Under the pieces are notes generated by a model. It was given only the letters and a program-made list of their open reading frames with translations, searched no databases and was not told the DNA's origin. DNA of 43,676 nucleotides from positions 1 to 43,676 of IMG/VR virus record IMGVR_UViG_3300023435_000036; one strand, 5' to 3'. The position numbers were made by a program, and so were the translations under genes. Shown one piece after another: positions 4,845 through 43,676 of this stretch. The first letter of the stretch is position 1; each line of letters opens with the position of its first letter. Origin of the DNA: a virus.

Positions 4845-4855
4845 AAATATAAGTT

Positions 4856-5182: not shown

Positions 5183-5192
5183 ATTCAATATT

Positions 5193-20673: not shown

Positions 20674-21301
20674 CACAATATTTATGAGTCCTTCTGTGGT
20701 ATGGAGTACGCTAAGTGAACTCTATAAAAGCATAGAATTTGATGAGGATGTTGTTATAGGGTTATGTGCTACCCTGGAAGTAGACCATATAAAAGATATT
20801 ACTCTTATGCAGCCCTTTCAGGGTATAGGCATAGAGAAGATCAATGGCCTGGTGAAAGTTCCATGCAATGTATTTCGTATCCTGGATATCTATGAAGCTA
20901 ATGAAAATCCTCTTACTGCAGCTAACAATGGCTCTTACCTTTATAACTTACAAGACAAGTATGGTAATGCTCCTGACGATGGAGATATCATATACCTTAA
21001 CTACAAAGGTATCCATGTAGACAATGACGGTATTCCTCAGATAGTCACCTGGCACCAAGAAGCTTGTGAGACATACTGTAAGATTAAGATACTGGAAGAA
21101 GCTGTAGGCATGGGTAAGTTCAAGGAGAGCATGTATGAGAGATGGCTTATGATGTTACCTGGACAGATCTCTGCTGCTAAGAACAACTTCAGACACAAGA
21201 CTCGTAAGGAGGTTGATGATTTGAATATTATAAGATACAATATGATAGTGAAGATTCACAACTTGCCTATCCAACAGAAAATGATGAGAGATGGATCATA
21301 A
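20654..21301 (+). CDS. Connector or tail-tube-like protein
   Basis: The 215-residue product could start at 20654 (MYAMANN) or 20663 (MANN), both overlapping the upstream gene by 11-20 bases. It has an N-terminal part with SPSVVWSTLSELYKSIEFDE, then a beta-rich middle (GLVKVPCNVFRILDIYEA, DDGDIIYLNYKG). The helical C-terminus ends in LPIQQKMMRDG. The pattern of helices, a beta 'plug' and a basic helical end resembles P22 gp4-like tail adaptor proteins that precede the tail-hub gene in crAss-like phages. This is a position-based call. Confidence 0.5.
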   Translation: MYAMANNTIFMSPSVVWSTLSELYKSIEFDEDVVIGLCATLEVDHIKDITLMQPFQGIGIEKINGLVKVPCNVFRILDIYEANENPLTAANNGSYLYNLQDKYGNAPDDGDIIYLNYKGIHVDNDGIPQIVTWHQEACETYCKIKILEEAVGMGKFKESMYERWLMMLPGQISAAKNNFRHKTRKEVDDLNIIRYNMIVKIHNLPIQQKMMRDGS

Positions 21302-25266: not shown

Positions 25267-27411
25267 ATGGTTGGTTCAATAATAGGCGGTGCAGCAAAAG
25301 GAATTGGTTCCTTAGTATCAGCAAATTTTATGAGTAGAGGACAGACTGAGATATTTGACAACCAGAAAAATAGTTGGGGGGACTTCGGTACTGCAGGAAA
25401 CTTCTCAGGTTCCTCTGCAGGATCAGAATCTAATACCTATAAGTCTGGTGAGAGGATGGGCAAATATGCTCAGAGAATGTTGGATATGACTGCTGCATGG
25501 ACAGGTGGTAATTCTGTTGCAGGTAGTCTGATGAATAAAATAAAGCCTACAGGTAATGGTCCTGAATCAGCACCAGGTAAGAGTAGTTGGGATGCTGGAT
25601 ATAGACCTGAAGGTGCTGATGCAGGTATAGGTGTAGGTGATATTGATTTAAGTACACCTTATGATGATGCTGATATTGACAATAGTATTCCAGAACCTTA
25701 TGAGAGTGGTACTTTTGATTTTGATACTGGTACTATGGATGATGGGATGAATGCTAGGAGTGGAGTATACATCCTACCTTCAAGAGGAGGAATGTTTACT
25801 AAGTTTGCTAAAGATGGTGCCTATGTTCCTAATCCAAGAAGAGGAGCAGGAAAGATGATACGACAAGGAGTTATTGATAAACTTATGAAGCTCAATAACA
25901 AGATAGGAGAGTTTGGTAATGAGTCTATATATAACAGGATGATTATAGGTGGTACACAGATGCATAGGCTAGGAGGTCTTCTAGGTAATGCTATCAGTCC
26001 TGCAGCTACAGCAGCAAGCTGGGCAATGATACTTCCAAGGCTAGAAGGTGACAGCTCTCCTAATCAACAAGAATGGAGAAAGCAACGGTCTATAGAGCAG
26101 GATGCTGAATATAAAGGGATACGATGGTCTAAACCACAATTAAGAATGGGTGGATACTTCCCTGAAAAAAACAACGATATTATGATAAAAAATAGAAGAC
26201 GTGCAAACAATGGATTATACGTCACAGGCGTAAGTCCTATCTATGGACCTTCACATGAGGGTGGTGGTATTAATATGTCAGTAGGAGGAAGACCTATAGA
26301 AGCAGAAGGTGGAGAGTACAAAGTAGCCTTAAACAAAGGTGATGCTATCTTTAATGATGATCAGATGTCTATGCTTAACTCAGGTATGCCTATAGAAGAT
26401 ATTATAGCTACTATGCCTACAATGAGTAGTAATGCTGAAGATGGTACTTTCTTTCCTGATGGTAAAAAAAGAAAGAAACAATTCTCTCAGGGTTCTATCG
26501 CAAATTATATGTTATTTGATAAATTAGATGATATACATACAGGACAGCCTTTTGCAAATAAAAAAGAAGGAAGAGAAGTTTTTGGTGCATATGAAGATAA
26601 TATGTTTGACGAAAGACGGATTGGTAAACCGGTTAGTCCTGATATAAAATTAAAGGAAGATAGAAAAAAGGCTGCTATTAAGACAGCAGGAGAATTTACT
26701 TTTGATCCATCTTTTACAGGAACTACAAAAGCTCCTACCAGTTCTGTTATTAAGAAGGGTAGGGATTCAAAACCAACTCTACCAGAGTCTGTTAATCCAG
26801 AAGATGATCTTTATGCAAGGTATAAAAAGAATTCTAAGATAGCTGCAGGAATAGAAGGAGTCAATACAGGTGTCCAGTTCTTTAATGCTTTTATGGCACG
26901 TAAGAGGAATATGAATCAGAATGCTCCTATAGGTGTATCTCCTATCAAACTACCTCGTAATAGACCTTATTTTGAAGATCCTACCACTTATATCAATGAG
27001 ATAGATAAAGGCTTTATATCAAGTGCTAATCAGTTAAGAAGGCTAGGACAACCAGATCTTATCCCAGGACTGTTTGCTAACAGGGCTGATGCTATCAGTA
27101 AGGTACAACAGGGAGTGGGAGGAGCAAACATAAAGTCTTCTATAGAGAACAACAGGATGAACTCAGAGCTTGACCTTAAAGAGAATATGTTTAACCTTGA
27201 TATCTTCAGGGCTAACAGAGATATGCTCGATAAGTTCGAGACTAGGAAGGAACAGGCTATCTATAGTAATGACGCAGCTATGAATGCAGCATCTTCCAGA
27301 GGATCTAGTATCTATGGAGAGCTAACACAGAAACAACTGCAAGCTGATGTTATTAAGGAGGCAGCAAGAAGTAAAAGGATGGCAGGAATTATGTCTTATC
27401 TATTTAGCTAA
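25267..27411 (+). CDS. Large virion/tail-associated protein
   Basis: The 714-residue product starts with a glycine-rich hydrophobic segment (SIIGGAAKGIGSLVSANFM) followed by a disordered S/G/D-rich region. A middle segment contains SPIYGPSHEGGGINMSVGG and EAEGGEYKVALNKGDAIF, a phrase I associate with structural proteins of Bacteroidetes phages. The C-terminus is helical (ELTQKQLQADVIKEAARSKR). It sits directly after the tail hub. I infer a tail muzzle, tail-tip or internal virion protein. No catalytic motif was found. Confidence 0.55.
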   Translation: MVGSIIGGAAKGIGSLVSANFMSRGQTEIFDNQKNSWGDFGTAGNFSGSSAGSESNTYKSGERMGKYAQRMLDMTAAWTGGNSVAGSLMNKIKPTGNGPESAPGKSSWDAGYRPEGADAGIGVGDIDLSTPYDDADIDNSIPEPYESGTFDFDTGTMDDGMNARSGVYILPSRGGMFTKFAKDGAYVPNPRRGAGKMIRQGVIDKLMKLNNKIGEFGNESIYNRMIIGGTQMHRLGGLLGNAISPAATAASWAMILPRLEGDSSPNQQEWRKQRSIEQDAEYKGIRWSKPQLRMGGYFPEKNNDIMIKNRRRANNGLYVTGVSPIYGPSHEGGGINMSVGGRPIEAEGGEYKVALNKGDAIFNDDQMSMLNSGMPIEDIIATMPTMSSNAEDGTFFPDGKKRKKQFSQGSIANYMLFDKLDDIHTGQPFANKKEGREVFGAYEDNMFDERRIGKPVSPDIKLKEDRKKAAIKTAGEFTFDPSFTGTTKAPTSSVIKKGRDSKPTLPESVNPEDDLYARYKKNSKIAAGIEGVNTGVQFFNAFMARKRNMNQNAPIGVSPIKLPRNRPYFEDPTTYINEIDKGFISSANQLRRLGQPDLIPGLFANRADAISKVQQGVGGANIKSSIENNRMNSELDLKENMFNLDIFRANRDMLDKFETRKEQAIYSNDAAMNAASSRGSSIYGELTQKQLQADVIKEAARSKRMAGIMSYLFS

Positions 27412-27596
27412 TGAGAAGGTTAAAGACAGATAGAAAGGGAAAGAAAGTGATCAGGGCAGGTAATCGTAAAAGCATACAGTGTACTCATTGTAAAAATATT
27501 TATTACTTTTATGGTGCCATGTGTAAGTGCAAGTGTCCTAAATGTAAAGGCAAAGGTCACAAGTTACTAGCAGTAGAAGGTAAGCAAGAAATTTAA
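27411..27596 (+). CDS. Small zinc-ribbon-like protein
   Basis: The 61-residue product is basic and carries C24xxC27 and then C38, C40 and C42xxC45 (CKCKCPKC), a plausible zinc-binding ribbon. The start shares one base with the upstream stop (TAATG). Such small proteins may bind nucleic acid or stabilise a larger partner. The role here is unknown. Confidence 0.6.
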   Translation: MRRLKTDRKGKKVIRAGNRKSIQCTHCKNIYYFYGAMCKCKCPKCKGKGHKLLAVEGKQEI

Positions 27597-27607
27597 ACCC
27601 TACAACT

Positions 27608-27922: not shown

Positions 27923-27923
27923 G

Positions 27924-28358: not shown

Positions 28359-28376
28359 GCTCTCAGATCAACGATA

Positions 28377-28392
28377 TACCCTCTATAGGGTA
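28377..28392 (+). promoter_or_regulatory. Short perfect hairpin in the gap before the cargo gene
   Basis: TACCCT and AGGGTA form a six-pair stem around a four-base loop in the 85-base gap 28359-28443. There is no T-run after it, so it is not a normal terminator. It could be an RNA-processing or stability element, or chance. No Bacteroidetes promoter motif was found in this gap. Confidence 0.35.
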
Positions 28393-28443
28393 AGACATCA
28401 GAACATAGATAATTATTGATTCACGCTTCTTAAAACGTACAAG

Positions 28444-30450
28444 ATGGCACTATTTTCTATATCCCCACAATTCCAAGGAAACAAACTTCCCTCTTCTTCT
28501 ATTCTTTCTCCCTTAGCTGCCATAGGATCTACTGGTAGAAGTTCTGGTGGAAGTGGTAGTAAGAGTAAAGAAGATACTATTAAGACAGACAAGATGTTAT
28601 ATCGTCAGAGTCTTGAGACTAAGAATGCTTTATCAGCAGCAGAGAGGAAGTATAAAGATGTTCAAAGAAGAGTGGCCCTAGAAGCTATGGACTCTAATGA
28701 TCCTATTGGAGTTATGACAAAAGGTAATTTATTTCAGGATTTAAAAACTGCTTTATTTGAATATACTTCTACTAAGGATCAGATAGAAGCTCTTATTCCT
28801 ATGCAACAACAGAACAAGGAAATATATGATAAGTCAGTAGAACAGATCAGTGATGGCAAGCTTAATGAAAATGATCCTTATTTTAATAATGGTAGCTTTG
28901 AGTATGTACCTGCTAAAGATAAAGAAGGTAATGATATAGTGAGACCTTTGAAGGTTAGTGAACATCTTGATAGAATGAGAGATATTCCTATGGGTTCTGA
29001 GCTAAGAAGATATAGTGCTCCTGATATGGAAGCATTGTTTACAGCTTATGATGATGCTTTTCAAGGTATTAAGTATGAGGATAAATTTACTCAATCTGGA
29101 TTCTATGATAAAAATGGTAAATTACCTACCGAGGTCTTGAATGCTAACAAAAATGATCAGTATAATGTAGGCAATAAGCATTCTATCACAAAGATCTCTG
29201 GAAACAAGCAAGTTGTTCAAGCTGCTTATAATGATTTCATAAGTACAGTAGAAGCAGATCCTAAGTTAAAACGTGCCTTTGATTACATGACAGCTATGGA
29301 AGAATACAGATCTATCTCTGAAGGGAAAGAGTTTAACTATGCTGCTTTCCAGAAGGATTTTGCAGATACTAGAAAAGCAAAGTATCTACAGAATAGATTT
29401 GTTGAGAGTTATGATCAGCTGATTCTTGGTAAAAAGAAAACAGTTGATAAGGGTAAGTGGGATTTACCTACTCTTATAGATCAGGAATTAGTAACTCCTT
29501 CGAAAGATGCTATAACAATTTCATCTAAGGGATTAGAAGACAATGTCTATACTAAAGAAGATATCCCAGGATATAGAACATGGTCTATGAAGACTAATCA
29601 ATATTATTCATATGTTAACCAAGAGGCTCATAAAGTAGCAGGTACTTCTAATGCTATTAAATTAGATGATTCTTTTGGTGATTTTGGATATCAGACATAT
29701 GGTGATCCTCTTAACTTAAATGACTTTAAAGGCTTAGGTATTCAGGTAGGAGGTTTGATACCTGTTGTTACAGAATATCCTTCTCCTACAGTGTTACCTA
29801 AAGAATCTGAGAAGATAGGTGTTAAGTTAACTACTAATGATGACTATGTGTTTATGGATCCTGCTCTTGGTAGGAGAATTGAAGAGAGGGATATGCTAAT
29901 AGCTCAAAGAGTTCCTGATGTACAAATGGGTTTTGGACATGAGAAGACTTATTATGATATCAAACTAGAAGATAAGATAAGAGCAATTAATCTACAGATA
30001 TCAGATGAACTACGAGTATATAGTAAAAGAGCTAATGTAAGTACTGAAACAGGTCATACAATTACTCAGGAAGATATGGATAAGTTAGAAGATTACTATA
30101 TGAAACATGCTAACAGATATGGGGAGAAAGTAAAAACTCACAGATTTGTATTTAACGTTCCTAAAGAAAGCTGGGAGAAGGTAGATGAGAGAATGAATTT
30201 TATTGATGCTGATGGAAAGATAGGTTATGGGAAATGGAGTGGTGCAACAAAGACAATAACGTTAAAAGATCAAGAATGGAAACCATGGATAATTGATATC
30301 CCTGTAACAGAAGGAGAGATAAGTTCCTTTGGAAACCATTTCCAAGATGTATCTCAGTTAGCACAAGATATAGCCCAGAAGCAAATGAATCAGATTAATG
30401 CTCAAAAAGAACTTGTAGAGTCAACAAGTTCAGAAAATCCAACAGAGTAG
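28444..30450 (+). CDS. Probable virion cargo/internal protein
   Basis: The 668-residue product starts MALFSISPQFQGNKLPSSS with a disordered S/G-rich region. A long charged helical body follows, without membrane spans or catalytic motifs, and the tail is glutamine-rich. Large helical proteins of this kind lie between the tail genes and the virion RNA polymerase in crAss-like phages and are packaged as ejected cargo (family knowledge). The giant gene follows after 26 bases. The role is inferred from position and composition. Confidence 0.5.
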   Translation: MALFSISPQFQGNKLPSSSILSPLAAIGSTGRSSGGSGSKSKEDTIKTDKMLYRQSLETKNALSAAERKYKDVQRRVALEAMDSNDPIGVMTKGNLFQDLKTALFEYTSTKDQIEALIPMQQQNKEIYDKSVEQISDGKLNENDPYFNNGSFEYVPAKDKEGNDIVRPLKVSEHLDRMRDIPMGSELRRYSAPDMEALFTAYDDAFQGIKYEDKFTQSGFYDKNGKLPTEVLNANKNDQYNVGNKHSITKISGNKQVVQAAYNDFISTVEADPKLKRAFDYMTAMEEYRSISEGKEFNYAAFQKDFADTRKAKYLQNRFVESYDQLILGKKKTVDKGKWDLPTLIDQELVTPSKDAITISSKGLEDNVYTKEDIPGYRTWSMKTNQYYSYVNQEAHKVAGTSNAIKLDDSFGDFGYQTYGDPLNLNDFKGLGIQVGGLIPVVTEYPSPTVLPKESEKIGVKLTTNDDYVFMDPALGRRIEERDMLIAQRVPDVQMGFGHEKTYYDIKLEDKIRAINLQISDELRVYSKRANVSTETGHTITQEDMDKLEDYYMKHANRYGEKVKTHRFVFNVPKESWEKVDERMNFIDADGKIGYGKWSGATKTITLKDQEWKPWIIDIPVTEGEISSFGNHFQDVSQLAQDIAQKQMNQINAQKELVESTSSENPTE

Positions 30451-30476: not shown

Positions 30477-33400
30477 ATGAATAACGATACTGAAAATGTT
30501 AATAGTATAGGTGATGGTGGAGAAGAAGAAGCAACACCAAAAGCAACACTTGATTATTTCCCAATGTATGCCTTTCAATGGTCAGCAGATCAAATAAGAC
30601 AATCACTAAAGGAGAATGATGCAGTAGTGACTCTCTGGGATAGAGAAAAGGCAAGAGAAAAGTATACTGTAGATACTCCTATGATAGATCCAAAGAACTT
30701 TGATAAGATCTACGATATGGCTTCTACGGGTTATTTAGATCATCAAGATGGGATTGATCACTTTGTTACTCCATGGATTGCTTATGGTAATGATACCTTC
30801 TTAAAACAAGAGATGGGAATTAAGTCTATTGATAGAAATTCTTTAGAGCAAACTTATATCTCTCCAACTATAGGTGTTAATCAGTTTGGACAGAATCTAC
30901 TTAGTCCTCAAGAAGAAGTATTTGCTAAAGGATATTATATTGACAGATTTGGCAAAAAGATAATAAAAAAGAAACCTACCGTATCTGATAGAGTACATAC
31001 TGTATTAAGAGGGTTAGCTGCTCTTGATAATTTCTTTGTTGGAACTAAAGATGATGTTGTTTATGATCCTAAGATGAGGACCCAGGAACAAAAGGATGGT
31101 TATGTAGCATATATGAATGCTCTTCAAGAGAAAGGTACATATGGTGATATAGATGTTAATGTAGAAGATCCTGATGATTCTGATAAAACTATTCCTCTAT
31201 TTCTTACAGATAAGAATGATTTTATTAAAATATATGCTCCGGGCCCAGATGGTACACCTACTATGTTAGAAGTACCAGTAGAAGATCCTAGAGTCACTCG
31301 AAGTTCTATTGTTAGTGCTATGGGGCCTGCTCCTTTTCAAAGGAATGCTATAAAAGATGGAATATTTCAAGCATATAATATGTTTTCTAGTGGTGCTGCT
31401 ACTTTTGAGACTGCTGATGAAATGGGTAGTAATTATCTAAATGAACTATTTTTTGGTGGTGATTATTATGGATTAAATAAATGGGCTGATAGATCTAAAA
31501 GAGAAACTACTATTCAGAATAAAGCACTGTTTGGAAAATCTCTACGTGCTAATCAGGGAATGTTTAATAGTTGGGAAGGATTCTCTTCAGTAATGGGTAG
31601 TGTAATTGCCCAATTAGTAATACAAAAAGGACTAGCACAGGGATTAAGAAATTTTAATGGGTTTAAATCTTTTGCTTCTACCTGGACATCTTTTGGAGTC
31701 TTTGGATTAATGAGTGGCCATCACTTTGTACAGACTGCTAGAGATATGGGGATAGAGGAAGCTGATATCGCTTGGATGTATCCTATACAGGTAGCTTCTG
31801 AGACATTTACAGAAGGATTTATAGGCAGAAATGTTATTGCTAGAGGATCAGGTTATTTTGTAGATAAGGCAGCAAGGTTAACTGCAGCTAAAAAGGTAAT
31901 GAAAAAATTTGGTATAAAGAATCTTAAAGAAGGTACAAAGACACAAAAAAGATTATGGTTGCACGGCTTTATCAAAGCTATTTCTGAGGGGAAAACTATA
32001 TTTGCTAGAACTATCTTAGCAGGTGGTGAAGAAGGAACAGAAGAATTCTTTCAGCAGATGATAGAGAACTCTATGCAGACATTCCATGATCAGATAAGAT
32101 ATGATGGAGAGAATGGATTATTACCAGGAAAAGGATTATTTGGTCCTGTAGATGCTAATAAGAGTTACTTAGAGAACTTATCTAATAGGATAGGAGATAA
32201 TGTACTAGAGTCTACTGTAGCAGGATTTATGGGTGGTATTACAATGGGACTCACTATGGGTGCCGGCAAGAATCCTATGGCAGATTATACTATGGGTTAT
32301 TATGGTGTAACTGGTGAGATGGATAAGCTAAGAAAGGCTACTCAAGATCTATATAACAAAGAGTCTTTAGGTCCAAATTACATCTCTACTGAAGGAGAAA
32401 TAAAAAATCCTGAGAGTGTTGATGGTTCTATGAATGATGTTGCATATCAGGGTATGATGCAGTCTATGGATATGTTTGAAGGTATCGTTAAAGATTTTGG
32501 TATTGACAACCCAATAGTACTTGAGGCTATAGGTAGGAGTAAGCTCATGCAGAAAGAACTTACTGATCTTATCGTATCCTATAAAGGTCTTGCTGAGCAG
32601 AAGCTAGCATTAGAGAATAAGGAAGAGGCTACCGAGGAAGATGCTGCACAGATAGCTAAGATCGATGAGCAGCTAGGTGTTGTCTCTCAAGCTATACAAG
32701 AGTATACTGTTCCTGAAGGTGCAGACACAAAATACAGTAAGAAATATAATGAAGCTATCAGAGAGAAGTATAGTGCTTTACTCTATGCTAAGAATGTCTC
32801 TGATGAACATTTTAAGAATGAAGGTACAGAGCTTACCGATAAGTTTCGGAAGTCAGAGAAGTACCAGACTAAATACAAAAGGAATATCCTGGATCATTTA
32901 GATACCTATGAGAAAGCTACAGAGTTCTCACAGAAGCTCACAGAATACCAGACTCAGGAAATAGAAAAGCAAGAGAAGATTGTAAAGAGTAACAATGAGA
33001 CTGTAGTTACCCACAAAGACCTATTTACTACCGTAGGTGAAGCTTCTAAGCTAAAGTCAAAGAAAGACCTTATGAAGGGGTTTGAGGGTGTCTGCAAGGC
33101 AATAATAGCTCTCTCTAAAGAAATTACTTTTGGTATCCCTGCACAGGGTAATGAAGAGCAGATCCAGGCAATAAGAGAAAGTGCTAAATATCAGAAGCAG
33201 CTAGAACAACTTGAGAAAGAACTTAACGATGAATATGCTACTGATCCTACCAATGAAGATGTAAAAGATCAGCTTAATACTACCAGGGAAACTATAGATG
33301 CTATTACACAGCTATCAGAGAATGCTTTTGTAGATGAGAATACAGAGAAGATAAGACAGCTAAGCAATGATGACAATGTACCTATGATGTTTCTCGAAGA

Positions 33401-36400
33401 GATGAGGGCTAGGGTGGATAACTTCAGGGAGCAGACAAGTACTGACCTTAACCCGTCTACTGCAGCCTCTTTGATTAAGTCTATCAATGCTGTTAGAGAT
33501 GCTCTGAAGACTGCTGATAAAGGAATGTTCTTCTTCTCTAAAGGATCAGATCATCCTAAGCTAGAACCTTCAAAGAATAAAGAGCTACCTGCATATAAAT
33601 ATTATGTCAGTGAGTCAGAGCTAAGGAATAGCAGAGAGCAAGTAAGTGAGATGTTGATAGATCTCGATACTATGGGTAACAGTGTACAGCTAGCTAAAGA
33701 AGCTAGTAAGTTTTTCCAGATCAAGCTACGTCAAGGACATATCAATGCTCAGAAGCAGGTAGTGACTCTCTTCTATGAGATGGATCCTACCATGATGGAA
33801 GAGCTCGTTCCTGATATTAAGAAACTGTTAGAAGATGTTAAAGACCTTACCCAGGAACAAAAGGATAAAAACACTCCTCCGGGTGTAGAGGAGATGGCAG
33901 ACTTGTTAAACAGTGAGAAGGTGCTACATGACATTTTTGTAAAGATGCAGGGTGCCAGTGACCAGCTAGTGAACTATGACTTTATAAACAGGCTACTTGC
34001 TGCTAAGAAGTTCAGATACAACTCAGCTTACTTCAATGCTCCTGACTATACTAAGGTAGGAGAGACTCTTAACTATTACTATAATCTGTTAAAGGTAAAT
34101 AGTGTCAATGATGTATATAAGACTCATGAAGGATATACCTACCTGGTAAACTTCCTCATGGCTCTTAATGGAGAGAGCATCAATACTCTTCAGGGTGCAA
34201 GGTCTAAAGTCAATGTAACGGCTCAGAATATCTCTACCTTCGAACAGATGATGGGTGTGAATATGGTGGTAAACCAACTGCTAGGACATAATGCTGATGT
34301 GCTCAAGATCGTCAGGGAGGTAGAATTTAACAACAGTGAACATATAAAGAAGGTGTCAGAGAAAGAAGATATCTTTATGGCTAACTCTATCTTTATGAGA
34401 GGAGACTTTGGAGGTGGTAAGAGTCAGCATATGATTCCTGAAGCTATAGCTATCAGAGACCAGCTTAAAAAAGATCCTAAAAGAAAATATTTATTGGTAC
34501 ACCATACCCAGGAGGTACTAAATACGCTAAGCAGTTCTTTAGAAGGTATTGATCAGGTATTTGATAATATCTCTATGGCAGACTTCATAGGTGGTAAGGT
34601 ACAAAACCCTAATCAGTATGAAGGTATGATAGTCGATGAGGCTTCTCTGCTTAGTAAAGACAACCTACAAGTTATCAATAAGAACTATAATGAAGATACT
34701 ACCGATCCTAGCTTTCAGATCATATGGCTCGGTGATGCTTCACAGATGATGCCTCCTGATGCTAAGAACAATATCTCCTATGCACAGAAGACGGGTGCTC
34801 GTACGTTCCCGGTGATGTTTAAGTTCACCACTCGCAATCCTGTTATCGAAAGACTAGCAGAAGCGTTTAGGAACAGACTAGACAATAACTCTATGGGTTA
34901 TCCTGAAGTGTATGTCAACGAATATGAAGCAGTAGGGATAACTAGAAGAGAGGGAGGAAAATATTATAATACTGTAGATAGTGTTATCAGTGATGCACTG
35001 TCCAGGCCAGAGAGTGTAAGCAGTGCTCTTGTCTTCTTAAACTCAGAACAGATAGATGCACTCCTAAAAGATCCTAACACCAAAGAGGAAACTAGGAAGA
35101 TAGTTGAAAAGCTCTTTGACAAGCATGGTAACCTAAAGACAGAATTCCAGGGACAGGTATATGTGTTGATGTCTGATCCTGCAACCAATGTGATGCCTAG
35201 GAAGATTCCAAGCATCCAAGGTCTTCGTAAAGATGAAGTATACATGGCAGTAAACCTCAATAGCTGGGGATATAAATACAATGGTAAAGAGTTAAAAGAA
35301 TTTGTAGCTTCTAACAGTGCTTATACAGCTGTAGGGAGAGCTTCTCGCTTTATGGGTCTGGTAGGCTCAGAAGGGTTAAATCTTACACAGAGGCCTTCAT
35401 GGTGGATAGATGGTCAGCAAGAGGTACTTGATACTTCTGATATCTATAATGATATGAATGAGTATCTAAAGAACATAGGTATAGAGTCAGCTATCAAGCC
35501 ACAGGAGAAACCTAAAGAGGTAAAGACTAAGATAGCTACTCCTATCCTTCACAAGTTCCGTAAGAACGGTATCTATACTATCAACAAAGGAGATGATTCT
35601 GGTGCCTTCTTTAAGATTACCCAGAGTGTAACGAACCAGAAAGACCTGACAGCAGACTCTTTTGCTACAGGACAGAAATATAAAGCTTATAATGAGCTTA
35701 CCAAGACTTTAGCAGAACCTTTTGGTAAAGAGTCACAGGTAGCTCTAGGAATATTGGATCCTATAGTCAAGACTCCTGCACCTACTCCCGGATATACTAC
35801 TAACAAGTATCTTACTGAGTACCCAGGAAAGCCAAGCATCGTTAAAGGTGCTGTAGCTGATGAAGTCTCTACAGGAAACTTCTATATCATAGATTCTATT
35901 ATAGAGAAAACTACTGATGGTGTGGTAGAGTATGAAATATACCTCGGTGGCAAGCAGATAGATCTTAACACTTTTGAGAAAGAGTATACCCTTCGCAGTG
36001 GCCCTAAAGAGACTACTGACCTTGATGACATAGAGAGTGGTAAGACGTTCTTCACAGGACAAGCTAAGGCGTGGCTTAACGGTAACAAGCTTTGGGGTAC
36101 TATCTATAGTGTCTTTAACACTTCGTCAGCTGATGTAAATATGGATCAGCTACGTAAGGATAGAGTGTCTATCTTAAACATGGTCTATAAGAGAAAGGTA
36201 ACTTCTGAGCTAGTATATCTAAAGTCAGCATTGATGGAAGATAGAAATACTGGTACCTGGAAGAACTTTGACAACGTGCTAGCTATTAAGGTTAGTGCTA
36301 TCAACGAAGAGTCTCTTACAAGTAATGAAAGAGAGATCTTACAAAGAAATCAATATATAGCTTCTCTGGGGGAGACTGATGCAGGATACGCTAAGCAGCA

Positions 36401-39400
36401 GATAAGAGATTACTCACAGCCCTTAGAGAATATAAAGCGACAGATATCTGAAGGCTTTGACAGTAGCTATACAGGCATGGAGCTAAGCCCAGAACACCAT
36501 ACAGCTAACAAAGAGGTTAACTACTATAAGGCTTCTCTGAGAAAGAAAGGATATGACTCTAATACCGATGAGTACAGCTTTGGAGAGATCATACTAGAAA
36601 ATGATATCAACGAGGGTAATGTAATCTATAACAAAGGTCCTCTTAGAACTTTTGCTGAGTTTATGGCTCATATAGAGAATACACTTTCCGGACAAATGGT
36701 TACTTTCTCTGATAAGATAGTACAGACATTCTATGGTAGTGGTAGGGTAGGACTACTCTTAAAGTATAAGTTCTCTGAAGGTGATGTAAACAGTACTGCT
36801 AACGAGGCCTATGTGATCTTTAAGACTAACAACCTTGGGAAGATGAATTCTAAGAGGATGCATGAGAAGATCAAAGAGGACAAGCAGAGCCTAAAAGATA
36901 TCCGTGCCTCTGAACAGGATAGCTTCTTTGGTAGTGAACTTAACAGGATGTTCTGGAAGAATGTCTTCGCACAAAACCTAAGCATCATTACTAATAACAA
37001 AGCTCTTAACGACTTCTTTGGTACCTACTTTGAAAAGGTAGGTGGTAGAGTCAATGTAAGGGTAAACAGAGATATCTTCCTTTTAGATTCAGACAATGTA
37101 CGTACCGATGCACAGATAAAGCTTGACGTACTAGATGCATTCCTGGACCAGGTGACAGAGCTATATAAAGATGACGTTACCGGTGAGGCAGCGAACCTAA
37201 GACTACAGATAGACAAACTATACCAGCCGTATACTATAGACCTAAGCACAAGTACCAGAGAGTTATCACCTAGTGAGATGGAGAATATCGTTACCAGTGC
37301 AGAGGCTATACACTTTCCATATGTAAATATATCTACTGATGGACTTGTTGACGTTAACGAAGAAATTACTAATAAGACTCCTAAAAGTTCAGATGGACCT
37401 GCAAGTAAGAAAGGTGCTAAGAGACCTAGGTTTGAAATAAAGACTGATAACATAGAGCCACGTACTGTAACTGTAGCTGCGGTAAGAGAACTATTCGAAA
37501 AGATAGCTCACCCTTCTATTTGGGAACAGGTAAAGAATGATATTACTCCTAACCTTCAGTTTGACGGTATGGACATCCACGGGTTAATGTATAATGGTAG
37601 GATAAAACTAGCCTTGTATAAAAAAGGTATTAAATACACTACTCCTAAGCACGAATTCTTTCATCTGGTATTCGACTACCTAATTGATGAGAACTCTCGT
37701 CAGAGGCTCTATAATGCCACAAAGGAACTGTTAGGCCTTCCTAATGCTACTGAAGACTATCTTACAGAGTGGATGGCAAGAGACTATGGCTATTCAGGAC
37801 TAAACTTAGACTCTGTAAAGCCTAAGCAAGGACTATGGAGTAGATTTGTAGACTTTGTAAACAAGCTCTTTAATGGATATACTAAGAGGGTAAATACTCT
37901 CGATGAGCTATTTTATAAGATGGATCACGGTTACTATAGAAATGTACAACCAGTACATGATGGTGGTAGAGACATTGTAAGAATGGAAGGAGAGAGTGAG
38001 CTTGACGAATACCAGGCTGATAACTTTAACCATAAGGCAGAAGATGGATTCGCTAAAGATGATACTCCTAACACTGACTATATAGAGATCTTCAATAATC
38101 AATATAAGGTATTTGGTAATGACATTAACAAGTATCTCAATGCTGTAGCTGATGCAGTAATACAATATACTTTCTTCTCTTCTGATTTATCTGTTGACAA
38201 GGTAGTACCTATGACAGAAGCTATCAAAGATGTACAGAAAGAGTATGAAGAGTATGGTAATGAGTTTGCTGATGAGCTTACCTCTGTAGGTATCCCTTAC
38301 AGCCAGATCACTGATGACGATGCAAAGAAACTCTCTATAGTAGAGAGAAGAAATCTAGGGTGGCTTAGGTTAGCTAACCAAGAAATATTCACTTCTTTTA
38401 TAGTAAGGCTTATGCCAGGGTATAACCCAGAGACAGGTCGCTTCTACAAATGGAATAAGCAGTCTACTCAGTATAACAGAGCCGGGGATGATGCAAATCC
38501 TGACCAGACTAAGAGTGACTTTATGAAGATGCAGATAAATGCTACTAGGTTTCATCAGTACTATTATTCTAGCAATGGGAGATTGGTACGCAACGAGTGG
38601 GATACTAAAGATGCATATGCCTTTGTGAACAGTAAGGACCTTGAGAAGTCTCTGAAAGATGCAGGGATGCGTGTAGCTAACAGGCTACTAAAAGATCCTT
38701 CACTGAATCCAGTAGAGGCCTTTACTCAGGAACTCTATAACTTAGCTACTGAGGCAGGACTTGACACCTATAAGGGTAGTAACATCCTTAGTTTCTATCA
38801 TAGGTTCTTTGAAGCTTTCACAGGTAAACCTTCATTAAGCAATAGGATAAATAGTATCGATGAGCTTATCAAGAGTGACGGTAGAAGCAATGTGTCTCAG
38901 CTAAAGCTAGATATCCAGAGTGACCTCTCAGACTTTATCAACTCACTGATATCCTATAATATTTCTTTTATGAGGCCTAAGTCTTCTTTTATAGAGTCTA
39001 AGAAGTCAGGAGACGAGACGGTATATAATATTGTTAACTCCTTTGAGAATACTTTTGATAACAAGAAGAAAGAGATTATCGATGGCATCTCTCAGACACT
39101 ATATGACAAAGACACCCGGAGCTTCAGAGAGCATGTAAAAGATAGACTAGGCAGTGGTAAGAATGCAGAGTTTGAAGTTACTTCTAGTGGTATCTCCTAT
39201 GTAAAGAACAAGCAGAAGATAAAAGTCATCTCTTATACTGACGGTAAGATCTCTTTCACTGAGGCTTTCCATGACAACGACAGTAGAGATAAGATACTCA
39301 CATACATCAAGAACTTTATAGGACTCAAGAACGTCACTGACCAGACTATCTACAATATGTATAACAACATGCACCATGAAGGTGCTAGGGTAGAGCTGAA

Positions 39401-42400
39401 CAAACGTACTCCTGAGTATAACTTAGAGAACACTAATACCTTCCTGGCAGAGACCTTTATGAATATGTTCTGGTCTGCGTCTTCTAACCTTACCATGCTC
39501 GACAAGATAGAGACTATCAACAAGGGTATATTGCGTAAGCTAGACAATAAAGCTATTAATGAAGAGGAAGCAAAAAAGCAAGAAGCTAAGCAGATAAAAG
39601 AACTATCTGTACCTTTCAACCAAGAGATGAGTTCCTTTCGTAAGAAGATGAACATCACCGATAGCACTATAGATGGTTTTGAGAAAGTCTTTGCAGGTAA
39701 CAACGTAGAGACTATTAAGAGTGATGTTAAGATTTATAAGCCTGTAGACTATTATAATGCCTTTGGTGTGATAGCAGCACTGGAAGTATATAATAAGGGT
39801 ATAGACTCCGATCTCTTCTCCAATAGACCTGATGGTACTAAAGCCTGGGGATTTAAGATGAAGTCCTGGGTCTTTGATATGTTCGGGGATGGTTCTGCGT
39901 GGCTTACTGATAAGATCAATAATATGCCTAAAGAAATACTAGATAACTCTATCTGGAAGAATACTAAAGGCAAATGGACTAACTGGATAGCTGATCCTAA
40001 AGGTATCCGTATACGAAGCCTCACTATAGGTAATGGACTGCGTGTAGGTAATAGAGGTATTGTAAAGCCTGGTTCTAAAGATCTAGCTACTATAAACCTT
40101 GCTAATTTCATAGAAGGTATACGTAAGTCTACTGATAAGCTTCAGGATATCTTTCTTACTATGACTAATATAGCTGATAAAGAGCTAACATATATTACTA
40201 ATACTGACTTCTCCTTTGGAAAGGGAAGAAGACTGATAAACATAGATAGAGACTCTAATGGTAATATCACCTCAGCTAATGTAGATGAGAAGATGATAAG
40301 CCATGGTATCGCTATAGAATTTGAGAGAGCTAACAGAGAGATGCAGATGTCCCAGGGTAAATTTGCCAGAGAGATACCTGCTAACAACCTTACCAAAGTA
40401 TTTCCTAGAGAGCTATGGTCTGTTAAAGACTTAAAGAACTTTAATCCTAAAAGCCTAGAATCTTTCTCTAAGACTCTCACCGATGAGCAGGCTATAGACC
40501 TAATGCGTTCTGGACTACGTAAGAACAAAGATTACTTCTTAGATGGTAATACTGTTACACTCGGTAATTCTATACTGTTTAAGGTACCTGGATATGAAGC
40601 TATCTATAACCATGACAACTATCAGAAGTTCTCTAACAATGGAGAAAGGTTTGCCTTACTAAACAAGACTGAAAGAGATAAGCTGTTCTTTCCACTATAT
40701 AGGGAATATGCAGGTAAGCTATCACAAATAGGATATCGTCAACAAAACGACGTAAAAACCCTTATAGAAGGTAAGATGGGTTACTTCTATACAGAGAAGA
40801 TGGAAGAGCACATGGAAGAGATGTCTATTTCAGCAAATCGCTATGGTGTTTCCGAGACTCCTATCACAGTCACAACTACTACAGAGAATATAATATGGAA
40901 TCCTGTCTACAAAGCTCACTTCTATGCATACCATATCGTTAACAATGCGGTAGGAGAGTTTGCCTTTGGTAATGTACAGAACCATAAAGATGCTGCTGAT
41001 AAGGTTAAGAGATCAGGATCTAAAGCAACTGGTGGTAGTAAGCTTGTAGTAAATACTAAATATGGTCTCCCTGCTATGGGTAAGGAGATAATGGTTAGTA
41101 CCATGTACAAAGAAGATGCAACGACCGGTGAATGGATAGAAAATGATGACGGTGGTGTGAATGGGTTTATGCTCTGGGAATCTTTTATGGAGAAAAGTGG
41201 TATAGATTATCAGTATGGTCCTATTGACAAGACAAGAGTCAAGACTCTGGATAATCGTATGGATTTTCAGTATGGTGATCAGTACCAGGAAAAAGAGTCT
41301 ATGAATTTTTTCAGCTCTCAGACCTACGAACAGACACTTCCTGTACGTCAGATGCAAAAAGATCTATTAGATCATGTCACAAAGGTTATGAGAAAAGACT
41401 TTGAGAACTATGATATAGACCTCTATGCTAAATTCAAAGAACTTTATGAAGCTACAGGTCATGCTGGTAGCAGGGATGCACAGAAAGCATTTAGGAACCT
41501 AAGAGACTGGATCGTAGAAGAGAGTAACTTCTCTGAAGAGATAAAGGCTCGTACTCCAAGAGGATTTGCTGATGAGACTATAGAGAAGCAGACTGTCAAC
41601 TATGTGAACATGTATGATCCTTACTCTTCTGAAGAGAAAGATCTCATAGCAAGAGATTTTGACAACTCTTCTCTGCGTATAGTGTTAAATCCATACCAAG
41701 AGACTAACAAGGTACAAAGACAGGCTCCTCCTTCACAGAATCTATCCTATATGGGCATAGGTGCTAGTAACCTAAACAGAGGTAAGAGGATAAGGATATT
41801 ACAAGAAGAGCTTTATACTATGAGTAAGGCTAGGATAAATACTTTGATGGGTATAGAGGCTAACAAACCAGAAGCAGCCTTTAACGAACAGGATATAGAG
41901 AAGTTTGTTTCTTTCCTCAGAGAGAGAGGCTTACAGGCTATACGTCAGATGGGTCTTATCACAGGATACACTGACCTTATCAACAATGTTATCAACAACC
42001 CTGGCATTATACATTCTCCTGAAGTAGCACAGAAGTTAAAACAGGCTTATAGGAGTTTTGTAAACGACAATGCTATACGTACCTCTTTTAAAGGCTTACG
42101 TGTAAACCAGTCTTCTTCCTATGGTTATCAGCTTTATTATGAGAATGGGATTCCTTATACTCTACAAGAGATAGAACGGTTTACCAATAGCACTATAGAG
42201 TCAGTAGAAGACCTTATAGATCTCGGATATACTCCTGCAGACTTAAAAGATATGACTGCTGGCAATGAAGGTATTCAGAGAGGACAGACGGTAATGCCTT
42301 ATCCTTACATGAGAGAGTTTGGTATAAAGAATGATGAAACTCTTAACGATGTCTTTACTATAGAAGCAGAAGCTAATGGAGAAGTGTTATCCTGGAATGT

Positions 42401-43676
42401 ACGTAACCTAAACGATGATGAGTTTATAGACTTCTTACAGACTTTAGCTGAAGGTGGCTCTGTTATCAACAAAGAGAGTTCTCCTATATTTAGAAACAGT
42501 CCAGAAGATCCACTGTCTTACTTTAGAAACTTCAAAGAGTCTCTAAAAGTATATTCAGGTCGTGTACCTGCAGATAGGTTAGGCAGTGCTTCTATATTAG
42601 AGATCACAGCTTTTATCAATGACAATGGTAACACAGCTTATGTTCCTGTAGAGATGAACATCCGTAACAATGCTGACCAGGATATTGACCAGTTAACGGT
42701 ATATATGAGAGAGTTTGCTGATGGTAAGTTAGCTATCGAAGGAGAGGGTGGTGCTCGTAACGCTATCCTTGATGAGATAGACAATGTATACCAGGACCCT
42801 GCTAATGCTAGTAAGATATTTATTAAGTCAGATGTAAAAGGCTTAAAGGAACTTGTAGATAAAAAGAAAAGAAAGTATGGAAGAGATAATGATTTTGCCT
42901 CTTACCTTGATAGTAGTCAAACTGCTAGTGAAGGTAACAAGGCTATAGGTATCTTGGCCATGTCTCTCTCAGGAGTCTCTTACCTGGCACAGCTAGGAAA
43001 GACCTTTATCAGAAATAATGCTCCGGGGTTAAGAAACCTCTCACTGTTTGACGAAGAGCAGTGGAGCACATCTCCATTTATCAATTTAGGTAATTGGATG
43101 CAGGTAGCCTTAGATAATGCCAAAGAGCTTGTATTAGGTAGGCTAGGTATCACTGCTGAAGCTGTTCCCGTGGTAGCTGTAATGACTGCTGACGGTAAGA
43201 GCAACCAGGAGATAGCTACATTCTTCGAACATCCTGTAGTAGAGAAGATCTATACACAAAGAAGTTTCCAGAACAGCTTAGAAGTTTTTGAGGCAGAACA
43301 GGTATATGAACTGGTAGCTGAAGAGATGGTCCTTAACGAGAGAAGTAAAAATACTGACAGCAACAAATCTTTACTTTCTAAGAGAGAAGCTTTAGAGACA
43401 AAACTTACTGAAGCTGAAAAGGTAGATGAGAACACTCCACCGGACATGAATCTTATAGAAGAGCTGTCCAGAGACATACGTGCTATAAAGAGTGAGCAGG
43501 AGAGAAGAGAAAACTATCAGGTCCTTACAGAGCTTAAAAAATACGTCTTCACAGCAGAAGCTTTACGTAGGATGACTCGCTTTGTAGCTTTACGCAATGG
43601 AGTACCAGTAATGGACTTTGACCTCTATAAGGCAGAGAACGAGCTTTCTAAGTATCTAGGGATGACTTACGAGGAG
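30477..43676 (+). CDS. Giant multi-domain virion protein (helicase, zincin, RNA polymerase-like); 3' end outside window
   Basis: ATG at 30477 opens a frame that I read through to the last base without a stop: at least 4400 codons. In order: an acidic N-terminus; a hydrophobic, glycine-rich region (about residues 360-600) with FFQQMIENS and GFMGGITMGLTMGAG; long coiled-coil-like helices (about 620-1250); an SF1 helicase (about 1300-1640); unassigned sequence; a zincin motif HEFFH (2392-2396); about 1000 unassigned residues; and an RNA-polymerase-like region from about 3480, with DQDID at 4067-4071. The mix fits 'polyvalent' giant phage proteins, thought to be packaged and injected with DNA. 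The preceding cargo-like gene agrees. Many antisense frames seen here are shadows of its codon use. Confidence 0.9.
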   Translation, partial: MNNDTENVNSIGDGGEEEATPKATLDYFPMYAFQWSADQIRQSLKENDAVVTLWDREKAREKYTVDTPMIDPKNFDKIYDMASTGYLDHQDGIDHFVTPWIAYGNDTFLKQEMGIKSIDRNSLEQTYISPTIGVNQFGQNLLSPQEEVFAKGYYIDRFGKKIIKKKPTVSDRVHTVLRGLAALDNFFVGTKDDVVYDPKMRTQEQKDGYVAYMNALQEKGTYGDIDVNVEDPDDSDKTIPLFLTDKNDFIKIYAPGPDGTPTMLEVPVEDPRVTRSSIVSAMGPAPFQRNAIKDGIFQAYNMFSSGAATFETADEMGSNYLNELFFGGDYYGLNKWADRSKRETTIQNKALFGKSLRANQGMFNSWEGFSSVMGSVIAQLVIQKGLAQGLRNFNGFKSFASTWTSFGVFGLMSGHHFVQTARDMGIEEADIAWMYPIQVASETFTEGFIGRNVIARGSGYFVDKAARLTAAKKVMKKFGIKNLKEGTKTQKRLWLHGFIKAISEGKTIFARTILAGGEEGTEEFFQQMIENSMQTFHDQIRYDGENGLLPGKGLFGPVDANKSYLENLSNRIGDNVLESTVAGFMGGITMGLTMGAGKNPMADYTMGYYGVTGEMDKLRKATQDLYNKESLGPNYISTEGEIKNPESVDGSMNDVAYQGMMQSMDMFEGIVKDFGIDNPIVLEAIGRSKLMQKELTDLIVSYKGLAEQKLALENKEEATEEDAAQIAKIDEQLGVVSQAIQEYTVPEGADTKYSKKYNEAIREKYSALLYAKNVSDEHFKNEGTELTDKFRKSEKYQTKYKRNILDHLDTYEKATEFSQKLTEYQTQEIEKQEKIVKSNNETVVTHKDLFTTVGEASKLKSKKDLMKGFEGVCKAIIALSKEITFGIPAQGNEEQIQAIRESAKYQKQLEQLEKELNDEYATDPTNEDVKDQLNTTRETIDAITQLSENAFVDENTEKIRQLSNDDNVPMMFLEEMRARVDNFREQTSTDLNPSTAASLIKSINAVRDALKTADKGMFFFSKGSDHPKLEPSKNKELPAYKYYVSESELRNSREQVSEMLIDLDTMGNSVQLAKEASKFFQIKLRQGHINAQKQVVTLFYEMDPTMMEELVPDIKKLLEDVKDLTQEQKDKNTPPGVEEMADLLNSEKVLHDIFVKMQGASDQLVNYDFINRLLAAKKFRYNSAYFNAPDYTKVGETLNYYYNLLKVNSVNDVYKTHEGYTYLVNFLMALNGESINTLQGARSKVNVTAQNISTFEQMMGVNMVVNQLLGHNADVLKIVREVEFNNSEHIKKVSEKEDIFMANSIFMRGDFGGGKSQHMIPEAIAIRDQLKKDPKRKYLLVHHTQEVLNTLSSSLEGIDQVFDNISMADFIGGKVQNPNQYEGMIVDEASLLSKDNLQVINKNYNEDTTDPSFQIIWLGDASQMMPPDAKNNISYAQKTGARTFPVMFKFTTRNPVIERLAEAFRNRLDNNSMGYPEVYVNEYEAVGITRREGGKYYNTVDSVISDALSRPESVSSALVFLNSEQIDALLKDPNTKEETRKIVEKLFDKHGNLKTEFQGQVYVLMSDPATNVMPRKIPSIQGLRKDEVYMAVNLNSWGYKYNGKELKEFVASNSAYTAVGRASRFMGLVGSEGLNLTQRPSWWIDGQQEVLDTSDIYNDMNEYLKNIGIESAIKPQEKPKEVKTKIATPILHKFRKNGIYTINKGDDSGAFFKITQSVTNQKDLTADSFATGQKYKAYNELTKTLAEPFGKESQVALGILDPIVKTPAPTPGYTTNKYLTEYPGKPSIVKGAVADEVSTGNFYIIDSIIEKTTDGVVEYEIYLGGKQIDLNTFEKEYTLRSGPKETTDLDDIESGKTFFTGQAKAWLNGNKLWGTIYSVFNTSSADVNMDQLRKDRVSILNMVYKRKVTSELVYLKSALMEDRNTGTWKNFDNVLAIKVSAINEESLTSNEREILQRNQYIASLGETDAGYAKQQIRDYSQPLENIKRQISEGFDSSYTGMELSPEHHTANKEVNYYKASLRKKGYDSNTDEYSFGEIILENDINEGNVIYNKGPLRTFAEFMAHIENTLSGQMVTFSDKIVQTFYGSGRVGLLLKYKFSEGDVNSTANEAYVIFKTNNLGKMNSKRMHEKIKEDKQSLKDIRASEQDSFFGSELNRMFWKNVFAQNLSIITNNKALNDFFGTYFEKVGGRVNVRVNRDIFLLDSDNVRTDAQIKLDVLDAFLDQVTELYKDDVTGEAANLRLQIDKLYQPYTIDLSTSTRELSPSEMENIVTSAEAIHFPYVNISTDGLVDVNEEITNKTPKSSDGPASKKGAKRPRFEIKTDNIEPRTVTVAAVRELFEKIAHPSIWEQVKNDITPNLQFDGMDIHGLMYNGRIKLALYKKGIKYTTPKHEFFHLVFDYLIDENSRQRLYNATKELLGLPNATEDYLTEWMARDYGYSGLNLDSVKPKQGLWSRFVDFVNKLFNGYTKRVNTLDELFYKMDHGYYRNVQPVHDGGRDIVRMEGESELDEYQADNFNHKAEDGFAKDDTPNTDYIEIFNNQYKVFGNDINKYLNAVADAVIQYTFFSSDLSVDKVVPMTEAIKDVQKEYEEYGNEFADELTSVGIPYSQITDDDAKKLSIVERRNLGWLRLANQEIFTSFIVRLMPGYNPETGRFYKWNKQSTQYNRAGDDANPDQTKSDFMKMQINATRFHQYYYSSNGRLVRNEWDTKDAYAFVNSKDLEKSLKDAGMRVANRLLKDPSLNPVEAFTQELYNLATEAGLDTYKGSNILSFYHRFFEAFTGKPSLSNRINSIDELIKSDGRSNVSQLKLDIQSDLSDFINSLISYNISFMRPKSSFIESKKSGDETVYNIVNSFENTFDNKKKEIIDGISQTLYDKDTRSFREHVKDRLGSGKNAEFEVTSSGISYVKNKQKIKVISYTDGKISFTEAFHDNDSRDKILTYIKNFIGLKNVTDQTIYNMYNNMHHEGARVELNKRTPEYNLENTNTFLAETFMNMFWSASSNLTMLDKIETINKGILRKLDNKAINEEEAKKQEAKQIKELSVPFNQEMSSFRKKMNITDSTIDGFEKVFAGNNVETIKSDVKIYKPVDYYNAFGVIAALEVYNKGIDSDLFSNRPDGTKAWGFKMKSWVFDMFGDGSAWLTDKINNMPKEILDNSIWKNTKGKWTNWIADPKGIRIRSLTIGNGLRVGNRGIVKPGSKDLATINLANFIEGIRKSTDKLQDIFLTMTNIADKELTYITNTDFSFGKGRRLINIDRDSNGNITSANVDEKMISHGIAIEFERANREMQMSQGKFAREIPANNLTKVFPRELWSVKDLKNFNPKSLESFSKTLTDEQAIDLMRSGLRKNKDYFLDGNTVTLGNSILFKVPGYEAIYNHDNYQKFSNNGERFALLNKTERDKLFFPLYREYAGKLSQIGYRQQNDVKTLIEGKMGYFYTEKMEEHMEEMSISANRYGVSETPITVTTTTENIIWNPVYKAHFYAYHIVNNAVGEFAFGNVQNHKDAADKVKRSGSKATGGSKLVVNTKYGLPAMGKEIMVSTMYKEDATTGEWIENDDGGVNGFMLWESFMEKSGIDYQYGPIDKTRVKTLDNRMDFQYGDQYQEKESMNFFSSQTYEQTLPVRQMQKDLLDHVTKVMRKDFENYDIDLYAKFKELYEATGHAGSRDAQKAFRNLRDWIVEESNFSEEIKARTPRGFADETIEKQTVNYVNMYDPYSSEEKDLIARDFDNSSLRIVLNPYQETNKVQRQAPPSQNLSYMGIGASNLNRGKRIRILQEELYTMSKARINTLMGIEANKPEAAFNEQDIEKFVSFLRERGLQAIRQMGLITGYTDLINNVINNPGIIHSPEVAQKLKQAYRSFVNDNAIRTSFKGLRVNQSSSYGYQLYYENGIPYTLQEIERFTNSTIESVEDLIDLGYTPADLKDMTAGNEGIQRGQTVMPYPYMREFGIKNDETLNDVFTIEAEANGEVLSWNVRNLNDDEFIDFLQTLAEGGSVINKESSPIFRNSPEDPLSYFRNFKESLKVYSGRVPADRLGSASILEITAFINDNGNTAYVPVEMNIRNNADQDIDQLTVYMREFADGKLAIEGEGGARNAILDEIDNVYQDPANASKIFIKSDVKGLKELVDKKKRKYGRDNDFASYLDSSQTASEGNKAIGILAMSLSGVSYLAQLGKTFIRNNAPGLRNLSLFDEEQWSTSPFINLGNWMQVALDNAKELVLGRLGITAEAVPVVAVMTADGKSNQEIATFFEHPVVEKIYTQRSFQNSLEVFEAEQVYELVAEEMVLNERSKNTDSNKSLLSKREALETKLTEAEKVDENTPPDMNLIEELSRDIRAIKSEQERRENYQVLTELKKYVFTAEALRRMTRFVALRNGVPVMDFDLYKAENELSKYLGMTYEE
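31550..32290 (+). other. Hydrophobic N-terminal region of the giant protein
   Basis: Residues about 360-600 hold several glycine/alanine-rich hydrophobic stretches (GSVIAQLVIQKGLAQGL near 374, GVFGLMSGHHF, then VAGFMGGITMGLTMGAG near 581-598). Acidic helices lie between them (GGEEGTEEFFQQMIENS near 516). This could be a membrane-inserting or ejection segment. I cannot tell membrane spans from buried amphipathic helices by eye. Confidence 0.45.
34401..35360 (+). other. SF1 helicase domain inside the giant protein
   Basis: Motifs are in the correct order. GDFGGGKS (Lys1315) is Walker A. IVDEAS (Asp1387, Glu1388) is Walker B/motif II. IIWLGDASQ (Gln1423) is motif III. FTTRNPVIERLAEAFRN is motif IV-like. 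TAVGRASRF (Arg1621) is motif VI with the arginine finger. This is the set for superfamily 1 helicases of the RecD/Pif1/UvrD type. The spacing (about 310 residues) is compact. All catalytic residues look intact. Confidence 0.75.
37650..37775 (+). other. Zincin-type metallopeptidase motif inside the giant protein
   Basis: HEFFH at residues 2392-2396 lies in a predicted helix (KHEFFHLVFDYL). About 30 residues later comes an acidic helix EDYLTEWMARDYGY (Glu2426, Glu2431) that could supply the third zinc ligand, as in gluzincins. Metallopeptidase domains with H-E-x-x-H are known in polyvalent phage proteins. Substrates could be host proteins or the giant protein itself. Confidence 0.6.
40900..43676 (+). 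other. Virion RNA polymerase-like C-terminal region of the giant protein (partial)
   Basis: From residue about 3480, the sequence follows the pattern I recall from giant virion RNA polymerases of crAss-like phages. There is an N-terminal piece with FAFGNVQNHKDAADKVKRSG. A stretch starting RVPADRLGSASILEITAF (from residue 4029) leads into NADQDIDQL, whose D4067-D4069-D4071 would be the DxDxD metal-binding motif of the beta'-like double-psi barrel. After it come SEGNKAIGILAMSL and LGRLGITAEAVPVVAVM with EHPVVEKIY, also typical of the downstream part. The usual glycine of DxDGD is isoleucine here. The end is beyond the window. Confidence 0.6.

Follow-up and report, generated by a model that had tools for sequence, protein, structure and literature searches.

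In the crAss-like phage crAss001, the cargo proteins gp47, gp49 and gp50 were detected in virions, and it was proposed that this cargo is partially unfolded during its ejection ahead of the DNA (PMC10172136). The RNA polymerase (RNAP) of the Cellulophaga phage phi14:2 makes rifampicin-resistant early transcripts, and giant crAss RNAPs that reach about 6,000 aa have been described (PMC10136315). Likewise, the survey of Yutin et al. 2021 (PMC7886860) describes transcription-block proteins with several domains from every group except Epsilon. In phi14:2, gp076 to gp078 are annotated as structural or virion proteins by mass spectrometry. The virion RNA polymerase (vRNAP) of this phage is gp66 of Drobysheva et al., annotated as gp077 and deposited as PDB 6VR4. 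Here, we show that one giant gene of an environmental virus joins homologues of all three cargo proteins in colinear order, and its product is very probably the transcription machine that a crAss-like podovirus packages in its virion.

The window, that is the whole stretch of DNA analysed, has 43,676 bases and is a virus record of IMG/VR. An earlier note on this DNA had claimed a single open frame from position 30477 to the right edge. This frame (30477..43676, + strand) is real and comprises 4,400 codons from the ATG to the window edge with zero stops; the chance of such an open run at the given base composition is log10 P about -148. The contig end cuts the gene, which on its own would be compatible with an artefact such as a chimeric contig or missed stops. 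However, the same ORF runs to its stop on two further IMG/VR contigs, 3300022868_000021 (58,700 bases) and 3300022890_000019 (74,217 bases), where its end is listed at 18046 and where residues 3701-4400 are encoded at 100% identity. A 12,100-base overlap between 3300022868_000021 and the window was compared base by base and contained no mismatch, and the left end of the window is also present on 3300022890_000019. The frame furthermore stays open in homologues that have diverged to 20-28% identity in the aligned blocks, with giants of 6,603 and 5,520 aa and one of 1,589 aa that is cut. The artefact reading is refuted for practical purposes, and the assembly error or missed stop that the note had named as a refutation did not materialize. 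The gene extends over the window-equivalent positions 30477-49622, so that its stop lies outside the window and residues 1-4400 of 6381 lie inside; the complete product has 6,381 aa, 728 kDa and a pI of 5.5. The hydrophobic N-terminal region that had been described is present in two stretches, residues 369-387 and 576-594 (31581..32258, + strand), but these score low (1.2 on the Kyte-Doolittle scale at 369 and 576) and the strongest hydrophobic stretch is C-terminal (2.0 at 6283).

The homology of the giant to known phages is visible only by direct pairwise or profile comparison. Pfam and PHROGs applied to slices of the giant gave nothing over the cut-offs, and searches of named phages with residues 1-4400 as DNA and with residues 1251-2333, 3300-4400 and 4401-6381 as protein returned no match. 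A profile of the giant and its homologues in two environmental relatives, G008 and G005, was compared with the three transcription-block cargo families. Three matches were obtained that are colinear along the giant: residues 2363-2487 with the C-terminus of gp47 (score 62), residues 3796-4685 with residues 1145-1969 of the phi14:2 vRNAP (score 146, prob 98, E 3e-14) and residues 5921-6344 with residues 948-1356 of phi14:2 gp76, a member of the gp49 family (score 81, prob 93). One reversed and four shuffled profiles served as controls and scored at most 28. By extrapolation of the ends, the borders between the parts fall near 2540-2650 and 4800-4900. The part lengths fit those of the relatives, which are 2341+2412+1349 aa in crAss001 and 1797+2180+1421 aa in phi14:2, and the gene order gp78-gp77-gp76 of phi14:2 is the order of the parts in the giant. 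Part 1 (residues ~1-2540) is gp47-like, with a superfamily 1 (SF1) helicase module and a C-terminal protease signature of the gluzincin type, part 2 (residues ~2540-4800) would be a single-chain two-barrel-type RNAP, and part 3 (residues ~4800-6381) is gp49-like with a second HExxH motif and a C-terminal hydrophobic segment. Two long stretches had been reported to match nothing. By colinearity, residues ~2540-3450 would be the N-terminal half of the vRNAP, and residues 1650-2380 lie inside the gp47-like part; for residues 1-1250, 1650-2340 and most of 2540-3480 no homology was detected outside the clade. The comparison with polyvalent phage proteins has to be replaced, as the giant is better described as a fused crAss-like transcription-block cargo protein, and the named polyvalent-protein domains (LPDs, MPTase-PolyVal; Iyer et al. 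2017) had no Pfam match in any slice of it.

The RNAP module carries the strongest evidence, and its earlier assignment from motifs is strongly borne out by the profile match, by an invariant DxDxD motif and by structure prediction. Homology of the crAss vRNAP type extends over residues ~3480-4685, of which 3480-4400 are in the window (40914..43676, + strand). The catalytic segment of the double-psi beta-barrel DPBB-B (42546..42716, + strand) has the pattern R4029-x-P4031 ... S4037 ... D4067-Q-D4069-I-D4071, and residues 4029-4077 read RVPADRLGS...NNADQDIDQLTVYM. Nine positions are invariant in 49 aligned sequences, namely R4029, P4031, S4037, D4067, D4069, D4071, K3511, R3512 and K3654. For a second barrel in the chain, DPBB-A, profile comparison gave a weak colinear match at residues 3481-3533 (E 0.07), a segment that contains the invariant K3511 and R3512. 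An AlphaFold model of residues 3390-4560 is of low to medium confidence, with a mean pLDDT of 59 and a pTM of 0.63; the pLDDT is mostly 70-88 around the active site. With this model, Foldseek retrieved 6VR4 (E 3.9e-11, prob 1.00, TMq 0.41) as the sole PDB match below E 0.001, and the next matches were other RNA polymerases. We regard the match to 6VR4 as a confirmation and not as independent proof, because the alignment behind the model contained crAss-like relatives.

The SF1 (PIF1/RecD-like) helicase module occupies residues ~1300-1650 (34374..35426, + strand). Motif I (GDFGGGKS, 1309-1316), motif II (IVDEAS, with D1387/E1388), motif III (LGDASQ, 1418-1423) and motif VI (YTAVGRA, 1616-1622) can be recognized. 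The Pfam family AAA_30 matches all three homologues (best 1.9e-13) and lies above the cut-off in G008 with 6e-15; the window copy reaches 0.08, below the cut-off. The motifs and the strong matches in the homologues bear out the helicase that had been proposed. A profile search against solved structures retrieved PIF1 at 0.013. Structure prediction, which the earlier note had proposed as a check of the three motif sites, recovered the fold of the RNAP (6VR4); for the helicase, AlphaFold with a three-sequence alignment gave a pLDDT of 38 and no significant fold match. Because this model is not confident, its Foldseek list was set aside. When alignment A2 was used to look for relatives that carry the helicase, it retrieved the same phage and G005 and no others.

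Zincin 1 is located at residues 2363-2487 (37563..37937, + strand), with HEFFH at 2392-2396 and E2431. It aligns with the C-terminal zincin of crAss001 gp47 (BLAST 1.5e-4; 0 of 1000 shuffles were as good), and the H, E and H of the motif together with E2431 are invariant across six crAss-like homologues. No curated Pfam entry matched it and a profile search of the PDB remained without significant match. By its signature zincin 1 would be a gluzincin-type metallopeptidase, and the protease claim of the earlier note thus holds up well by homology. A second HExxH (HEFQH) is found at residue 5017, beyond the window, and motif and position make it a putative metallopeptidase (zincin 2). Pairwise comparison gave no support for homology between zincin 2 and phi14:2 gp76, since 272 of 1000 shuffles scored as well; for its counterpart in G008 none of 1000 shuffles was as good.

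The position of the two zincins bears on the question of whether the giant is a polyprotein that its own zincin(s) would cut near ~2540 and ~4800 during head maturation, in which case the virion would hold three proteins, like those of crAss001 and phi14:2, and only the gene would be fused. We give this reading a substantial chance, somewhat below an even one. Zincin 1 lies just before the inferred border between part 1 and the RNAP, and HEFQH 5017 just after the border between the RNAP and part 3. In addition, the unfused gp47 of crAss001 also has a C-terminal zincin, and Iyer et al. 2017 (PMC5512222) proposed that zincins process polyvalent proteins. However, the gp47 zincin occurs in phages in which the proteins are already separate, and hence it is not needed for their separation. 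Moreover, the giant of a further relative, G013, is fused yet has no HExxH, and the giant of G008 lacks zincin 1. If the chain stays uncleaved, the three cargo parts would be delivered in a fixed 1:1:1 stoichiometry and in an ordered N-to-C manner. The presence of all three cargo proteins in one chain would make it testable whether cargo crosses the tail threaded or in pieces.

Comparison with described phages reveals how far the fusion has gone. As in the giant, the RNAP of phi14:2, homologous over ~890 residues, has the DxDxD site and is followed by a gp76/gp49-type part; the catalytic motif is DQDID in the giant and DFDID in phi14:2. In contrast to the giant, the parts are three separate genes in phi14:2 and there is no detectable helicase. 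In crAss001, the C-terminal zincin of gp47 and the DFDVD of gp50 align with the giant in the series gp47-gp50-gp49, and the cargo adds up to 6,102 aa compared to 6,381 aa, both nearly free of cysteine. Unlike in the giant, the crAss001 genes are separate, gp47 is on the other strand and no helicase was found. A similar architecture has been published for the uncultured phage cr50_1 (Suoliviridae), whose 4,774-aa ORF QOR58058, annotated as 'DNA helicase', combines a zincin (1665), an RNAP (3154) and an SF1 helicase (4275). Here, however, the helicase follows the RNAP at the C-terminal end, and a gene of its own (1,386 aa) encodes the gp49-like part. The combination of protease, RNAP and helicase in one frame, which had been thought possibly undescribed, is therefore already present in cr50_1 with the helicase last, and the order of helicase then protease is likewise not unique, as it recurs in the environmental contig G025 (helicase 1220, HEAFH 2644), where the frame is cut by the contig end.

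The environmental relatives add further layouts. G008 encodes a complete giant of 6,603 aa, in which the helicase is at 1394 when numbering starts at the upstream stop, the RNAP motif DYDID at 4169 and HETIH at 5223. In G005, the contig end cuts the giant after the N-terminal 1,589 residues, which are 24% identical over 1,493 positions. In G013, the giant of 5,520 aa comprises an RNAP part and a gp49-like part and also matches the C-terminal region of the gp47 type; no helicase was recognized in it. In G024 (IMGVR_UViG_3300001525_000014), one frame of 6,083 aa, open only when TAG is read as a residue, contains a zincin (2336), an RNAP (3930) and a helicase (4793), and a separate gene of 1,830 aa carries HEICH. 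Thus, gene fusion and fission are frequent in the transcription block, and the helicase has come to stand on either side of the RNAP: it is N-terminal in the window giant, G005, G008 and G025 and C-terminal in cr50_1 and G024. The C-terminal helicases are closer to each other than to the N-terminal ones, as judged by pairwise scores, and the two kinds may have been acquired independently. That related giants carry a helicase at two different places suggests that an ejected polymerase benefits from a DNA motor. Measured against the text of the published surveys, new in the giant are the larger size range, the greater degree of fusion and the added N-terminal helicase; helicases in other crAss giants may already be drawn in the domain figures of these surveys.

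A feature shared by the giant and ejected proteins is the depletion of cysteine. The giant contains 1 cysteine in 6,381 aa, although the other + strand genes predict about 58 (P about 3e-24), and the two preceding large proteins of 714 and 668 aa (25267-30450) contain none; in the early genes of the same phage, cysteine makes up 1.33%. In phi14:2 there are 6 cysteines in 7,004 aa of cargo, compared to 38 in 6,816 aa of other virion proteins and 77 in 6,460 aa of early genes. The crAss001 proteins gp47/49/50 have 5 in 6,102 aa, the G013 giant has 0 in 5,520 aa, and 46 of 67 environmental RNAP segments are likewise depleted. Among the ejected proteins of N4, the vRNAP (0/3500), gp51 (0/644) and gp52 (0/150) are free of cysteine, as are gp15 (0/747) and gp16 (0/1318) of T7, with gp14 having one (1/196), and gp96 of the Thermus phage P23-45 (0/5002). 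The capsid proteins of N4 and P23-45 are also free of cysteine, so a lack of cysteine is not exclusive to ejected proteins. For N4-like vRNAPs the lack was noted earlier and tied to membrane crossing (PMC5795418); here, this mark extends to crAss-like cargo, T7 gp15/gp16 and P23-45 gp96. As a sequence mark of ejected proteins, the cysteine count is simple and can be checked, and it may serve as a predictor of injected proteins. For the giant, the depletion supports the view that the whole chain, including the helicase, is built for ejection through the tail.

The suggestion that the giant is packaged and injected finds support in this depletion and in the homology to virion cargo. In principle, the giant could instead be an early or middle cytoplasmic enzyme that is not packaged. 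We consider this quite improbable, as the gene lies on the structural strand directly after the tail genes and opposite the replication genes, its homologues are virion proteins, and the cysteine depletion is common to ejected proteins and absent from the early genes of the same phage. Even less probable is a fusion of the RNAP to a tail tape measure. The precedent would be P23-45 gp96, which is similar in size (5,002 aa), lacks cysteine and combines a two-barrel-type RNAP with a metallopeptidase. However, the terminase large subunit (TerL), the portal and the stabilisation protein of the window phage are of crAss-like podovirus types, and the flanks of the giant match the gp47 and gp49 families instead. 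To our knowledge, crAss-like podoviruses have no tape measure of the gp96 kind. The N4 vRNAP and P23-45 gp96 resemble the giant as giant cysteine-free virion RNAPs, and zincins have been reported fused to N4-like RNAPs. In contrast to the giant, the N4 RNAP is T7-like and not of the two-barrel type, in P23-45 the RNAP is joined to a tape measure, and neither protein has the crAss flanking parts.

Since they are homologous, the giant in one chain should act like the crAss001 and phi14:2 cargo. We infer that it would be made late and loaded into the capsid near the portal, and that it would be ejected through the tail before the DNA, N-terminus first, either unfolded or as beads on a string. In the cell, the giant would refold, and the opposite-strand early genes would be transcribed by its RNAP. 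Since this polymerase would reach the cell ahead of any other phage protein, the helicase may pull in or open the entering DNA for it, and the zincin probably separates parts of the chain or attacks a host target. A bolder version, which we hold to be possible but rather unlikely, is that the whole 728-kDa chain would be threaded through the tail as one polypeptide in which the helicase goes ahead of the RNAP, that both would jointly form an internalisation motor pulling in the genome, and that phage proteins ejected through tails would in general be recognizable by being nearly free of cysteine. If so, the unassigned N-terminal and middle regions of the giant would be predicted injected effectors.

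The genome surrounding the gene points to a deep-branching crAss-like lineage. Among 50,697 named phages, all listed matches to TerL (112 records) and to the portal (123 records) are crAss-like, with identities of only 22-28%; an alignment-based scan of IMG/VR found closer environmental relatives, with TerL identities of 52, 43, 37 and 31-36%. Two of these relatives, G005 and G008, share the gene order of the window across the terminase, portal, capsid, tail and stabilisation genes, and a window protein of 1,323 aa aligns with the phi14:2 virion protein gp082 (E 9e-10). From these TerL and portal matches, the synteny and the gp082 alignment, we assign the phage to such a lineage. On the + strand, the order is TerL (6538..9789), portal (9795..12449; nearest named relatives all crAss-like), major capsid protein (13689..15167; phrog_11589, 5e-8) and the crAss-like tail stabilisation-type protein (21291..25262), which holds the region similar to gp082. 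It is followed by the cysteine-free protein of 714 aa (25267..27411, + strand), which has hydrophobic Gly-rich stretches and is a probable companion ejection protein in a gp45-like position, and by that of 668 aa (28444..30450, + strand), by position and cysteine count a probable companion cargo or ejection protein. On the 3' side of the giant, a few further genes lie on the + strand; the following stretch of about 20 kb carries - strand genes, in which translations read by eye include ligase-like, DUF932-like, PDDEXK-like exonuclease and DnaB-like ATPase proteins. A layout in two gene arms is usual for crAss-like phages, and the arrangement of the window phage agrees with it. IHF, gene 74 and gene 75 are named as Crassvirales signature genes by Yutin et al. 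2021 (PMC7886860); no IHF was seen in PHROG scans of the window.

Contigs from metagenome-assembled genomes (MAGs) with a related TerL include one binned as Bacteroidales (52%) and one as Neomarinimicrobiota (40%). A host call from this binning was rejected, as one contig per taxon at these identities is too weak. The second, JAIPHI010000018.1, is a 21-kb phage contig with a 40% identical TerL in a Candidatus Neomarinimicrobiota MAG, and possibly indicates either a host outside Bacteroidota or a binning error. The TerL of the window phage contains a probable intein at about residues 475-860, which starts with CLLPGEKV, ends with ..GYHN before C and has a homing-endonuclease-like middle (PHROG matches to endonuclease and RNR entries). 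Among the tail-side genes, positions 1485-2078 encode an HNH/endonuclease VII-like protein with 10 cysteines in 197 aa, likely a free-standing homing endonuclease. The protein encoded at positions 1-516 is truncated and contains a repeat of about 22 residues in tandem (GDIASLPSGLTDYYNTGSNTTS), and in the early region, at window-equivalent 62049-62624 (- strand), there is a protein of 6-8-residue repeats of the form F-[TK]-A-G-[DY]-N/S.
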